From Victivallales bacterium (GTDB lineage Bacteria > Verrucomicrobiota > Lentisphaeria > Victivallales > SZUA-371): a stretch of 43,052 nucleotides of DNA. The notes below the pieces were generated by a model. The model searched no databases. It saw nothing but the letters and a program-made list of their open reading frames with translations, and was not told the DNA's origin. Location: contig JAFGXT010000192.1 in assembly GCA_016936495.1 (NCBI GenBank), positions 1-43,052 on the forward strand. The letters are read 5' to 3'. The translations under genes were made by a program, and so were the position numbers. Below, piece by piece: positions 10,096 through 42,439 of this stretch (its first letter is position 1; each line of letters opens with the position of its first letter).

Positions 10096-10776
10096 ATGAA
10101 ACAGCGTCAAAAATTTACACTTATCGAGCTCCTCGTAGTGATAGCCATCATAGCTATCCTTGCATCCATGCTGCTCCCGGCACTGAGCCAGGCGCGGGAC
10201 AGAGCAAAAATGATTAAATGTACCGGCAACATGAAACAACTTGCTTCCGCAATGAATATGTACATGGATGATTACAATTGGTGGTCACCTGGAATAGGCG
10301 CGGTCGTAGATGAACATAGTGATTACTCAATATTTCTTTATGTTCATTATATGGGAATGAAACGTTGGGTCAATGGTCAGACTTTTCTTCCGGCTGTGAT
10401 GACCTGTCCTGCAAATATCAATAAAACCTCTGATGGTTCAACGCCGATAGGATATGCGAGTATAATAAGAACAATAACAGAACCAGACGGAACGAAAAGG
10501 AGTATGCGCATGTCCGAATTCCGACATCCCTCGGCAGTGCCCGTGTTTTTGGATAATGATTTCTTCGCTAATGACGGTTCCGGTCTGGGAACTCTGACAT
10601 ATTGGTGGAGTCGTCCGCTTTATGTACAGAGGCGGCATCTCAACAAGTATTTGACATACGGCTGTCTTGACGGGCACGTGGAGGTCAGGGACTATAATGA
10701 GGCAAGAATGACCTCGCCCGCACCTAAGGACAGACTGTGGAGAATATGGACTTATCCGACAAGAAAAGAATGGTAA
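10096..10776 (+). CDS. Pseudopilin-like protein with type IV prepilin N-terminus (module A)
   Basis: This is a 226-aa membrane-anchored protein. It starts with a short basic leader (MKQRQK) and then [20 protein letters not shown], the hydrophobic helix of type IV pilins and type II secretion pseudopilins, with the conserved Glu at position 5 after the Phe. The residue before Phe is Lys, not the Gly normally needed by prepilin peptidase. The C-terminus carries a His...Asp-Gly motif ([17 protein letters not shown]) like the H-X9-DG domain common in Planctomycetes and Lentisphaerota, here with ten residues between His and Asp. The gene follows the regulator by 19 nt, with GAGAGGG as ribosome-binding site. 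It may help display or export the 917-aa protein encoded next; that is inference. Confidence 0.85.
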
Positions 10777-36804: not shown

Positions 36805-37186
36805 GCTTGAATATCGTGTTCCCTATGCCGACACCGACCGTATGGGCATTGTTTACTACGCCAATTATCTGATTTATTTTGAGCGGATAAGAAACGAAAT
36901 ACTGCGGGAAGCGGGTCTACCATATCGCATACTTGAGGAACAAGGATTGATGTTGCCGGTGGTGGAAGCGGTTTGCCGTTATAAAGCGCCGGCGCGTTAT
37001 GACGATATGCTTAGTTTAAAAGGCTGGGTCTCCGAGGCAAAAGGGGCACGCACCCGGATTGAATGTGAAGTTTACAAAGATAATGAATTGCTGGTAAACG
37101 GTTATACCATCCACGCGGCTGTAAATGCGGCAGGTCGTCCGGCAAGGCTTCCTGAAACGCTGATTGCGCTCAAGCCGGAAGCGTGA
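36791..37186 (+). CDS. Acyl-CoA thioesterase of the 4HBT (YbgC) family
   Basis: This is a 131-aa hotdog-fold thioesterase. It has the YbgC-type signature VPYADTDRMGIVYYANYLIYFE with the catalytic Asp followed by the GxVyyaNYl stretch. Such enzymes release CoA from short or aromatic acyl-CoAs, and YbgC itself is tied to the Tol-Pal system in proteobacteria. No tol or pal gene is here, so the substrate is open. Its start lies inside the end of cmk, so the two are probably translated together. Confidence 0.88.
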   Translation: MRVTELEYRVPYADTDRMGIVYYANYLIYFERIRNEILREAGLPYRILEEQGLMLPVVEAVCRYKAPARYDDMLSLKGWVSEAKGARTRIECEVYKDNELLVNGYTIHAAVNAAGRPARLPETLIALKPEA

Positions 37187-37213: not shown

Positions 37214-37240
37214 TTCTTTCCGATTTTTTTATTTTCTGAT

Positions 37241-37365
37241 TTGCTTTTAAATCAAGAGCCTGTATCTTACTTGCCATCGCAACAATTGAGATTGTGGCGT
37301 ACATGGTATCAATGCCATGATTATATATTTAGAAGCCGGAAAACCGCAAGGTTTTCCGGTTTCGC
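37241..37365 (+). repeat. 125-bp element, copy 1 (candidate small RNA gene)
   Basis: This element and that at 39937-40061 align over 125 bp without a gap, with 17 differences (about 86% identity). In the last 107 bp, 12 of 13 differences are transitions. Each copy starts with a promoter-like TTGCTT-16 bp-TATCTT or TATTTT, and the four leftmost differences fall in the spacer. Each ends in a 14-bp terminator hairpin. Between them lies a conserved block with CTTGCCAT, AATTGAGA, TGTGGC and ATCAATGCCAT. A transcript from it would be about 95 nt. No protein is encoded consistently. Both copies point the same way and bracket the iclR-GH10 pair. Confidence 0.75.
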
Positions 37366-37370
37366 TTTTT
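37332..37370 (+). terminator. Terminator hairpin of repeat copy 1
   Basis: GAAGCCGGAAAACC (37332-37345) pairs with GGTTTTCCGGTTTC (37350-37363) around GCAA, with one G-U pair, then GCTTTTTAT. In copy 2 the G-U pair is G-C, so the change keeps the structure. It also lies just past the iclR stop codon on the other strand and may end that transcript. Confidence 0.85.
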
Positions 37371-37374
37371 ATAT

Positions 37375-38139
37375 CTATGCTTGTCCGAGTTTTTCCTCTA
37401 TGTGCCTGGCACAGTCGTGCAGCATGGACAATATTCCCGCGCGACGCGGCTTATCCGTTCGCGACAGCGGCGCGTAGCAACCTAGAGCGGCAACGACCTC
37501 ATTGCCGCCGGTGAGTATTGGCGCCGCGATTGCTACAAAGCGACCATGTTCATCCATGCAACCTCCGTCTCTACGTATGCGCCGCAATTCCTGCTTCAAT
37601 CCCTCAATCGTATTGCCGCACTCCGGCCAGTCCTCCTCAAGAGGAAAGCCGTTGACTTCGATAAAATTATTCAACTGTTCCTGAGAAAACCATGCAAGAA
37701 CAACCCGGGTGGTCCGCATCCGGTAAAAATTGGCGTTTGCCGCCCAATGCGGTTCCACCATGTTATCCCCTGTCGCCTGTCGCCGCAATATCTCCACCCG
37801 GCGTCCCTTTACGATGGAAGACAATAGCACGCTCTCGCCCAGATCCTCAACCGTTTTATCTATCAGCGGCGCCGCCACTTCACGCAATCTTCTCAGAATG
37901 CCTTCAGCGCGGAACAAACGACAGCACTTATCTCCTTCCTCGTATTTTCCGTGCCCACTGCGACGCACATAACCGCATTCCTCCAGAGTCCGCAGCAGAT
38001 TACGTGCCGTCACCGGCAGAATACCGGTGCGAGCCGCCACCTCCGCCAACGTAAGATGTTTGTTTTCCAATGCTTGATCCATCAGCAATTCCAATATCGC
38101 CATTGCCTTGCTCACCGATTTCACCAATTGATACGCCAT
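37375..38139 (-). CDS. IclR-family transcriptional regulator
   Basis: This is a 254-aa regulator with an N-terminal winged helix (about 1-65; LVKSVSKAMAILELLMD, LTLAEVAARTGILPVTARNL, LRTLEECGYVRR) and a C-terminal effector-binding IclR domain (about 80-250; SVLLSSIVKGRRVEILRR, GGCMDEHGRFVAIAAPILTG). The start at 38139 is chosen because AAGGAA stands upstream, and because a longer frame to 38187 would run through the predicted promoter and operator. It is divergent from the GH10 gene, its probable target. Family members usually sense small aromatic or sugar-acid metabolites; the ligand here is unknown. Confidence 0.9.
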   Translation of the reverse strand: MAYQLVKSVSKAMAILELLMDQALENKHLTLAEVAARTGILPVTARNLLRTLEECGYVRRSGHGKYEEGDKCCRLFRAEGILRRLREVAAPLIDKTVEDLGESVLLSSIVKGRRVEILRRQATGDNMVEPHWAANANFYRMRTTRVVLAWFSQEQLNNFIEVNGFPLEEDWPECGNTIEGLKQELRRIRRDGGCMDEHGRFVAIAAPILTGGNEVVAALGCYAPLSRTDKPRRAGILSMLHDCARHIEEKLGQA

Positions 38140-38157
38140 TATTCCATTTCCTTGTTG

Positions 38158-38203
38158 TATATTCAGCATTACTGAATATATCACCAATTAATCATCTTGT
38201 CAA
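38158..38203 (-). promoter_or_regulatory. iclR promoter with overlapping inverted-repeat operator
   Basis: On the minus strand TTGACA (38198-38203), a 17-bp spacer and TATATT (38175-38180) form a near-consensus promoter. A perfect inverted repeat TATATTCAG-CATTA-CTGAATATA (38158-38180) covers the -10 box and the transcription start, consistent with autorepression by the IclR protein. Confidence 0.75.
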
Positions 38204-38272: not shown

Positions 38273-38344
38273 AATAATAGCTGAATGTCAAACAAGTAAA
38301 TGGCATTCGTTGTATATTAAAACAAACACAGGATCAGTAAAAAA

Positions 38345-39817
38345 ATGACTGCGAAAAACTGGGCGGAACAGGACAAAGTAATGAGTGAAGCTTACTGGAA
38401 ACTCTGGAATCCGGAAGTACAGGCACGCATTGATCGGGACATCGAAGCCAACCGCAAGGCAGACGCATGTGTGGAATTGCCGGGTTTGCCACATGACACG
38501 GAAGTACAGGTCGAACAATTGACGCATGACTTTGTTTTCGGAGCGCATCTTTTCAATTTTAACCAGTTGGGTACAGATGAACGCAACCGCAAGCATCAGG
38601 AGCTTTTCGGCACGCTGTTCAACTCCGGAACCGTGGCTTTCTACTGGAAAAAGTTTGAGCTGGAAGAAGGCAAACCCCGCTTTAAAGAAGAATTTCGCGA
38701 TACCGCCGAATACTGGAACAAAGCTGCCGACCCCAAAAATGAGACTCACTGGCGCCGTCCGGCAACCGACCCTGTAGTGGAATTCTGCGAACGTAAAGGC
38801 ATCCGCATTCACGGGCATACTCTGACCTGGGGTAACCGGCGCTGGCAAATGCCGGACTGGATGATTAAAAAACTGCCCGCGCAGTTTATAGAAGGGTATA
38901 TGCAGGAAAGCCCAAGGGGACATAGTTATTTTAACAATATATTTGCGGATTTCACCCCGGAACAAGTTGAAAAGCTTTTGCCGGAATTTACCCGTGAGCT
39001 CAATTGCAAAATGACAGAGCGCATAATCGAGATCGCGTTGTACTATAAAGACCGTATTCACAGCTGGGACGTCGCCAATGAAAGCGCAACCGATTTTGGT
39101 CTGGGCGTGATGAAGCCAGGCAGTGGCATATGTCAAAGTCATTACGGTTTAATGCCCGGAGATTACACCTATCGTTCATTTAAAACCGCCGAAAGCGTAT
39201 TTAACGAAAATATCAAATTGAATATCAATGATTATAATTTACAGCAATGCTACGTGGATCAGACTTTGGACTTGCTCAAACGCAATTGCAAAGTCGATAT
39301 TATGGGCGCACAAATGCATTTATTCAACCCGGAGACATGTCTTAACATTGCGGCTGGTATAGCTGATGGCAGGTCAGAGACCCAGTTCCCGGAAGCCGTA
39401 TGGGAAACAATGAACAGACTGGCTTCGGCTGGATTGCCTATTCACTTAAGCGAGATCACGATAACCGCGCCGGATAACGACGCACGTGGACAGGCGATCC
39501 AGGCGGTCATCACTCGCAATCTATACCGCTTATGGTTCAGCGTCAAAGCCATGATGGGCATAACCTGGTGGAATACGGTTGATGACTGCGGGGCTCCCGG
39601 CGAGCCCTCGGTTTCCGGTATATTCTCGCGCGATATGGAACCCAAACCAGCTTATTTCACCCTGAATAAGCTTATCAACGAGGACTGGAAAACCAGGACA
39701 ACGGTTAAAGCTGACAAAGACGGACGCATAGAGTTCCGCGGTTTTCGCGGCAATTACCATCTGAGCTGGAAAGATGCCAAAGGTGTCGAACAGACACAGG
39801 AATTTTATCTAAAATAG
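38345..39817 (+). CDS. GH10 endo-1,4-beta-xylanase-like protein, no signal peptide
   Basis: This is a 490-aa glycoside hydrolase family 10 protein, which cuts beta-1,4-xylan or xylo-oligosaccharides by a retaining mechanism. It shows IRIHGHTLTWGNRRWQMPDW, the acid/base E246 in HSWDVANES, the VDIMGAQMHLF strand and the nucleophile E370 in IHLSEITIT, then WWNTVDDCGAPGEPSVSGIF. The N-terminus (MTAKNWAEQDKVMSEAYW) has no signal peptide. An in-frame stop at 38318 with no start between excludes a longer export form. It is thus probably cytoplasmic, like xylanases that trim imported oligosaccharides. AGGATC precedes the ATG. It is divergent from iclR. Confidence 0.9.
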   Translation: MTAKNWAEQDKVMSEAYWKLWNPEVQARIDRDIEANRKADACVELPGLPHDTEVQVEQLTHDFVFGAHLFNFNQLGTDERNRKHQELFGTLFNSGTVAFYWKKFELEEGKPRFKEEFRDTAEYWNKAADPKNETHWRRPATDPVVEFCERKGIRIHGHTLTWGNRRWQMPDWMIKKLPAQFIEGYMQESPRGHSYFNNIFADFTPEQVEKLLPEFTRELNCKMTERIIEIALYYKDRIHSWDVANESATDFGLGVMKPGSGICQSHYGLMPGDYTYRSFKTAESVFNENIKLNINDYNLQQCYVDQTLDLLKRNCKVDIMGAQMHLFNPETCLNIAAGIADGRSETQFPEAVWETMNRLASAGLPIHLSEITITAPDNDARGQAIQAVITRNLYRLWFSVKAMMGITWWNTVDDCGAPGEPSVSGIFSRDMEPKPAYFTLNKLINEDWKTRTTVKADKDGRIEFRGFRGNYHLSWKDAKGVEQTQEFYLK

Positions 39818-39836: not shown

Positions 39837-39876
39837 ACTCCGGTCTGCGATGTACAAATCCAGACTGGAGTTTTAT
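39837..39876 (+). terminator. Terminator of the GH10 gene
   Basis: ACTCCGGTCTG (39837-39847) pairs with CAGACTGGAGT (39861-39871) with one G-U pair, followed by TTTATT. It is 20 nt after the GH10 stop codon. The GH10 gene thus has its own terminator, separate from the repeat copy 60 bp further on. Confidence 0.8.
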
Positions 39877-39936
39877 TGAATGCATAGGCTCTAAACATAC
39901 AAATGACACGTCGGATTAAGTAGTTTTTCACTTTTT

Positions 39937-40061
39937 TTGCTTTTCAAACAACACCCTGTATTTTACTTGCCATTGAGATAATTGAGACTGTGGCATACAT
40001 AACATCAATGCCATAATTATATATTTAGAAGCCGGAAAACCACAAGGTTTTCCGGCTTCGC
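39937..40061 (+). repeat. 125-bp element, copy 2 (candidate small RNA gene)
   Basis: This is the partner of 37241-37365: same orientation and no gaps. The promoter-like pair is TTGCTT (39937-39942) and TATTTT (39959-39964), 16 bp apart. The element sits between the GH10 terminator and the module B regulator, so it is not needed to end GH10 transcription. This supports an independent transcript. The rest of the 485-bp gap around it holds the GH10 terminator, the module B regulator promoter region and no gene. Confidence 0.75.
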
Positions 40062-40065
40062 TTTT
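40028..40065 (+). terminator. Terminator hairpin of repeat copy 2
   Basis: GAAGCCGGAAAACC (40028-40041) pairs perfectly with GGTTTTCCGGCTTC (40046-40059) around ACAA, followed by GCTTTTATATA. Confidence 0.85.
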
Positions 40066-40201
40066 ATATACCCGGCGTAACCGATTTAATGATATAATAT
40101 TCAAGCTTAAGATTAAAAACCATACGCATCCAATCCCACTACACATAGAAAATTAAGCTTTTTATTCATTGCATTAATATGATTACAATATTTTATTCTT
40201 C

Positions 40202-40261
40202 TGTAAACTAAAAATAAATTTGTTTACAATATATTTACTTATGCCAATAAAGTGCTATAAT
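40202..40261 (+). promoter_or_regulatory. Promoter region of module B regulator
   Basis: A perfect TATAAT (40256-40261) has TTTACT (40234-40239) 16 bp upstream. Further upstream an inverted repeat TGTAAAC (40202-40208) / GTTTACA (40222-40228) with a 13-bp spacer could bind a regulator. A second inverted pair, ATAAAGTGC (40247-40255) and GCACTTTAT (40295-40303), brackets the leader and runs into the start codon. Confidence 0.5.
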
Positions 40262-41716: not shown

Positions 41717-42439
41717 ATGAGAAAGATAACAGAAAGAAATTTTACACTAATCGAACTCCTCGTCGTGATAGCCATAATCGCTATTTTGGCGGCCATGCTT
41801 CTACCGGCACTGAATATGGCAAGGGAGAAAGCCCATGCTATATCATGTTCAAATAACCTCAAGCAGGTGATGCTGGGTCAGACTATGTATGCCAACGATA
41901 ACAATGAATTTATGGTAATGACAATAAAAAAGACCTCTTTTATTCCATGGACACATATCTTAAGGTTTGATAAATACTTGACCGTGGAAAGTCTTAACTG
42001 CCCTGGAGTGAAGAAGCAGATAACTAAAGACAACTGGGACGGTATTACGCAGTATATGGTATCTTACGGCTTTCCGAATGAATGGAATTATCTTGGTTCA
42101 TGGAGTTATTCATGGAGCCAGTATGGCAATTTTTTCATCTACAGGGATGGATGTGTCTACTATAATATGAAGCAGATGAAGCGAACTTCAAATATCTTTC
42201 TAGGGATGGATACTATAAAAGGTGACCCAAGTAATTCATGGTATGGATATGGTTATATGAAATGGGCTCAGGGAACCTCTGTTGAGGGAGCCCGTATTCA
42301 CCTACGTCATTCCGGGATGGCAAACGCCGGAGCGGCTGATGGTCATGTGGCTTCATTTAGAGGGGCTCCGCTTTTTCAGGATACAGCACTTAAGCCCAGA
42401 TACTTTTTCACTCAGGACATACTTCCTTTAAACTACTAA
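41717..42439 (+). CDS. Pseudopilin-like protein with type IV prepilin N-terminus and H-X9-DG motif (module B)
   Basis: This is a 240-aa membrane-anchored protein. A short leader (MRKITERN) is followed by [20 protein letters not shown], with the Glu at position 5. As in the module A protein, the residue before Phe is not Gly; here it is Asn. The C-terminus has [14 protein letters not shown], an exact H-X9-DG motif. The middle is rich in Trp and Tyr ([13 protein letters not shown]), which suggests a surface-exposed fold. AAAGGAA stands upstream of the ATG. The next gene encodes an exported protein, the same order as in module A. It may act in the export or surface attachment of that partner. 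Confidence 0.87.

Follow-up and report, generated by a model that had tools for sequence, protein, structure and literature searches.

The window, that is, the whole 43,052-nucleotide stretch of Victivallales DNA analysed here, contains two copies of a short non-coding element, with a start-to-start spacing of about 2.7 kb and a module of two genes, encoding an IclR-family regulator and a GH10 glycoside hydrolase, between them. The core gene run secY-cmk-ybgC lies upstream of copy 1, which starts 54 nt past ybgC (stop at 37186), where there is no other terminator, and ends about 2 nt short of the stop of the convergent iclR gene (37375). Copy 2 is placed in the 485-base intergenic region between GH10 and gntR; the gene downstream of it encodes a GntR/LacI-hybrid regulator and has its own TG-TATAAT promoter-like site at 40234–40261. 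The features of the locus, in window positions, are the following.

37240–37373, plus strand: copy 1, candidate sRNA gene (self-BLAST and repeat finder; predicted RNA about 37273–37371)
37241–37268, plus strand: TTGCTT-16-TATCTT, a weak promoter-like box pair in copy 1 (read from sequence)
37293–37319, plus strand: hairpin in the body of copy 1, UGUGGCGU / AUGCCAUG, 8 bp of which three are G-U; a different fold has the minimum energy (pair count)
37332–37371, plus strand: copy 1 intrinsic terminator with a 14-bp stem, a GCAA loop and a T-run
37375–38187, minus strand: IclR-family regulator, divergent from GH10 (Pfam; pair conserved in genome G131)
38300–38307, plus strand: GH10 leader segment AUGGCAUU, with complementarity to the AAUGCCAU present in each copy (a lead only)
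38345–39817, plus strand: GH10 glycoside hydrolase, between the two copies (Pfam)
about 39837–39876, plus strand: terminator of the GH10 gene itself, 11-bp stem, 13-nt loop, TTTTATT (read from sequence)
39936–40069, plus strand: copy 2, candidate sRNA gene (self-BLAST and repeat finder; predicted RNA about 39969–40067)
39937–39964, plus strand: TTGCTT-16-TATTTT, a weak promoter-like box pair in copy 2 (read from sequence)
39989–40015, plus strand: hairpin in the body of copy 2, UGUGGCAU / AUGCCAUA, 8 bp; here it is the fold of minimum energy
40028–40067, plus strand: copy 2 intrinsic terminator with a 14-bp stem, an ACAA loop and a T-run

As a sequence-only reading of this DNA had claimed, copy 2 lies beyond a separate GH10 terminator, the 11-bp-stem hairpin listed above. 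Flanked by this terminator on one side and the separate gntR promoter-like site on the other, copy 2 looks like a stand-alone unit. The divergent iclR–GH10 pair recurs in G131, a genome from a distant family of the order (57% and 63% identity), and neither gene was found in three other genomes of the family, a distribution that suggests horizontal acquisition of the pair as a module. Beside the predicted iclR promoter, the dyad ATTCAG-N5-CTGAAT (38161–38179), read from the sequence, is a plausible IclR operator. Elsewhere in the window, two paralogous genes (10096–10776 and 41717–42439) encode pseudopilin-like proteins with prepilin-type N-termini, and their 5′ ends match at 83% over 77 bp; the second of them also matches DUF1559.

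Extent and copy number of the repeat

BLAST aligns 37240–37373 with 39936–40069 free of gaps, at 86–87% identity over 130–135 nt (E about 1e-39), and the resemblance between the two copies is not due to chance. The slightly shorter pair delimited in the sequence-only reading (37241–37365 and 39937–40061) has 108 of 125 positions identical (86.4%) and 17 changes, and its count for the last 107 bases (37259–37365), 12 transitions among 13 changes, was right. We do not use this bias as evidence, since it is usual at modest divergence and is expected from pairs that tolerate G-U. The element is the longest direct repeat that the repeat finder returned in the window, and its edges are sharp: in 20-nt bins, identity between the copies is 0.2–0.35 up to 37239 and 0.75–1.0 inside the element, falls to 0.55 in both of the bins that span the right edge, and is 0.15–0.3 from 37400 onward; the values outside are at chance level. 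The left edge of similarity coincides with the TTGCTT box and the right edge with the T-run of the intrinsic terminator. Changes are concentrated toward the 5′ end, with 14 in the 5′ 67 nt and three in the 3′ 62 nt (37308–37369); these three are all structure-neutral (a loop position, U-G/U-A and G-U/G-C). The segment AAUGCCAU is identical in copy 1 and copy 2, and the AU-rich linker AUUAUAUAUUUA, which precedes the terminator hairpin, is invariant between them.

The organism's own genome (4.5 Mb, 88.8% complete) contains exactly two copies, with no third found by DNA search, instead of the decayed fragments scattered genome-wide that the sequence-only reading had named as the outcome that would speak against it. 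This copy number does not fit a dispersed repeat of the MITE or REP-like kind, and the other repeat families are unrelated. DNA searches of the genus, family, order (137 genomes) and class (198 genomes) gave no convincing relative, nor did blastn against phages and plasmids or a search of genome and viral contig collections with the exact core pattern; the element was likewise not found in the genomes that carry iclR–GH10. Apparent homologues (L026–L031) are short chance matches, mostly of 20–33 nt, in unrelated sequence. A covariance model built from both copies finds only generic terminators elsewhere, and its one further match in the own genome (L079, 40.5 bits) is a gene-end terminator that does not keep the body hairpin. 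Rfam gave no match above the gathering threshold in the window; two chance matches (E up to 5) lie outside the copies, one of them being the GH10 terminator hairpin.

A self-comparison of 0.77 Mb of the own genome revealed other multi-copy non-coding repeats, unrelated to the element. One is a dispersed mosaic intergenic family with several GC-rich hairpins, often ending in a terminator-like stem and T-run, at seven places (L109:9964-10186, L141:5208-5380, L144:3882-4087, L138:8160-8292, L126:1-113, L127:14910-15015 and L130:4662-4787). A second non-coding family is 89–95% identical over 170–270 bp (L124:6583-6854, L132:17259-17520 and L108:16910-17087). In addition, an internal GH10 fragment (39019–39248; 230 bp) recurs with 93% identity at G000:C275:4422-4651 (locus L092), in an intergenic region between alpha-L-rhamnosidase and acetolactate synthase small-subunit genes, upstream of which an apparent fragment of a glycyl-radical enzyme gene is seen by eye on the minus strand.

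Promoter-like boxes, terminator and RNA folding

The promoter-like boxes that the sequence-only reading had pointed out are present in both copies, but they are weak, with 7 of 12 consensus matches, and the promoter scan did not list them. Upstream of genes in the own genome, boxes of the TTGCT type are not enriched (8 sense versus 7 antisense), whereas those of the TTGAC type are (43 versus 10). The putative promoter of the element is, by these counts, weak and atypical for the genome. On the reverse strand, both copies have TTGYGG-18-TATAAT, after which neither a terminator nor an ORF with a ribosome site was seen.

The 14-bp terminator stem is formed in both copies, and a G-U pair of copy 1 is G-C in copy 2, exactly as had been described. 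For the body of the predicted RNA, the earlier description stood in part: copy 2 indeed lacks the stems that copy 1 forms in its minimum-energy fold, but an 8-bp stem, UGUGGCRU/AUGCCAUR, had been missed and can form in both, with the exchanges between copies being U-G/U-A and G-U/A-U. Each of the 22 drawn pairs is standard in copy 1 and in copy 2, a result that 7.8% of random placements of the changes equal; none of the 22 has changes on both sides, and paired columns are not significantly more conserved than the rest (p 0.21). The whole-RNA fold has z-scores of −5.6 (copy 1) and −7.3 (copy 2), mostly from the terminator, and the body without the terminator has marginal values of −1.6 and −1.4. 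The preservation of pairs in the body hairpin is therefore suggestive only, and the structural evidence apart from the terminator is not significant.

Candidate sibling small RNAs and competing explanations

We favour the reading as a short transcription unit that stands alone, because it best explains the start and end points of both copies, the terminator of copy 2 that GH10 does not need, and the lack of a coding frame. In our judgement there is about an even chance that the element is a duplicated, lineage-restricted pair of sibling sRNA genes; the duplication, sharp edges, terminator and non-coding character are observed, and promoter use, a transcript and base-pairing are predicted. The "small RNA family" of the sequence-only reading fares less well than its short unit: the unit is the best-fitting reading, but two copies and no relatives do not establish a family.

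The main rival, possible though clearly less probable, is a duplicated gene end. In this reading the last part of a transcript, terminator included, was copied by segmental duplication; the element would have no RNA of its own and would serve at most as the ybgC terminator in copy 1. Copy 1 is indeed placed where ybgC has no other terminator, conservation is clear only in the terminator and the linker before it, and short duplications do happen in the own genome, as the GH10 fragment at C275 and the other non-coding repeats indicate. However, the terminator of copy 2 is intact past GH10's own terminator, where no gene needs it; the similarity begins at a plausible −35 box and not at a random point; and the stretch after ybgC in relatives contains nothing similar, a comparison informative for plus-strand loci only.

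An unlikely alternative would make the element a relic of the arrival of the module, being the homology or target site of iclR–GH10 recombination, with the copies as left and right junctions and the second derived from a related donor. Such a donor would explain the 14% divergence, the copies flank iclR–GH10 with the iclR end 2 bp from copy 1, and the patchy occurrence of the pair described above fits an arrival; against this, no integrase or inverted ends were seen, the genomes with iclR–GH10 do not have the element, and for an att site a length of 130 bp, at 86% identity, would be large. Very unlikely is that the inverted repeat TGGCRT-N11-ATGCCA acts as a protein-binding operator rather than an RNA hairpin: the imperfect dyad is kept in both copies and regulator genes adjoin on both sides, but one dyad change (G/A at 37299) breaks the DNA symmetry in copy 1 while keeping the RNA G-U pair, the 8-mer half-site occurs only once more nearby (at 38300), and the dyad alone leaves the conserved terminator unexplained. 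Barely credible is a small peptide encoded by each copy, for although the frame at 37240–37317 is open in both with the same stop (FAFKSRACILLAIATIEIVAYMVSMP / FAFQTTPCILLAIEIIETVAYITSMP) and short minus-strand ORFs begin at an ATG common to both, the plus frame has neither a start codon at its head in either copy nor a ribosome-binding site, the changes are spread evenly over codon positions (12 nonsynonymous versus 4 synonymous codons), and 137 genomes hold no homologue; a coding reading was rejected in all six frames, which have no codon-position bias or third-position excess.

If the element is a pair of sibling sRNA genes, each copy would be transcribed from its own weak promoter at the left edge into an RNA of about 95–100 nt, with a variable 5′ part, the short hairpin UGUGGCRU/AUGCCAUR, the invariant linker and the terminator hairpin. 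The sibling RNAs may base-pair with mRNAs as antisense regulators, and would do so without Hfq: no PF17209 match was found in the own genome (88.8% complete), the control genomes matched, and a chaperone-independent mode, or one with another chaperone, would be needed. One possible target, which the invariant AAUGCCAU would contact, is the leader of GH10, the gene flanked by the copies. The predicted duplexes with this leader, of −27.1 and −26.6 kcal/mol for the two copies, are stronger than those of 989 and 999 among 1000 mononucleotide shuffles (11/1000 and 1/1000 at least as good), uncorrected for the neighbours tested. With both copies combined, the GH10 leader comes only 18th among 572 start regions, and we regard this pairing as a lead and not a finding.

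Among known systems, PrrF1/PrrF2, OmrA/OmrB and AbcR1/AbcR2 resemble the element in being non-coding units of about 100 nt in two related intergenic copies, each with an intrinsic terminator (PMC4211561). Known sibling sRNAs have identities from about 65% upward (AbcR, >65–80%; RyhB1/2, 69%), a range within which the 86% of the element falls, and AbcR of S. meliloti shares with it a location between regulator genes (PMC4211561). The known siblings (PrrF, OmrA/B, AbcR) differ in being proven transcripts with known regulators and targets and with relatives in other species (PMC4211561); the transcripts of the element are predicted, and its copies are 2.7 kb apart around the GH10 module. Pxr of myxobacteria is, similarly, a recent sRNA restricted to one clade, with duplicate copies that have diverged in structure, but its function has been tested and homologues occur in several species (PMC5568312), whereas the element has only two copies in one genome. 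Ordinary intrinsic terminators with CCGGAAAA-type stems occur in the same order; the terminator stem of the element is of this common local type, and the covariance-model matches elsewhere are just such terminators. The terminator alone, however, does not explain 75–100% identity over the 90 nt before it. The closest kinds are sibling sRNAs and clade-restricted duplicated sRNAs such as Pxr, with which copy number, size, terminator and non-coding character agree.

A bolder proposal, which we consider quite improbable, is that a young pair of sibling sRNAs, in a lineage with no detectable Hfq, flanks and controls the horizontally acquired iclR–GH10 module through pairing of AAUGCCAU with the GH10 leader, placing a foreign gene under the RNA control of its recipient. 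A search of the literature on sRNAs of Lentisphaerae-like bacteria found no such work. If it is not transcribed, the element is a duplicated terminator fragment of an ordinary kind. If it is, it would amount to a young sibling sRNA pair specific to its lineage, from a bacterial order in which small RNAs seem to have been studied little, and would offer a compact case of how sRNA genes duplicate and gain targets beside a horizontally acquired gene.
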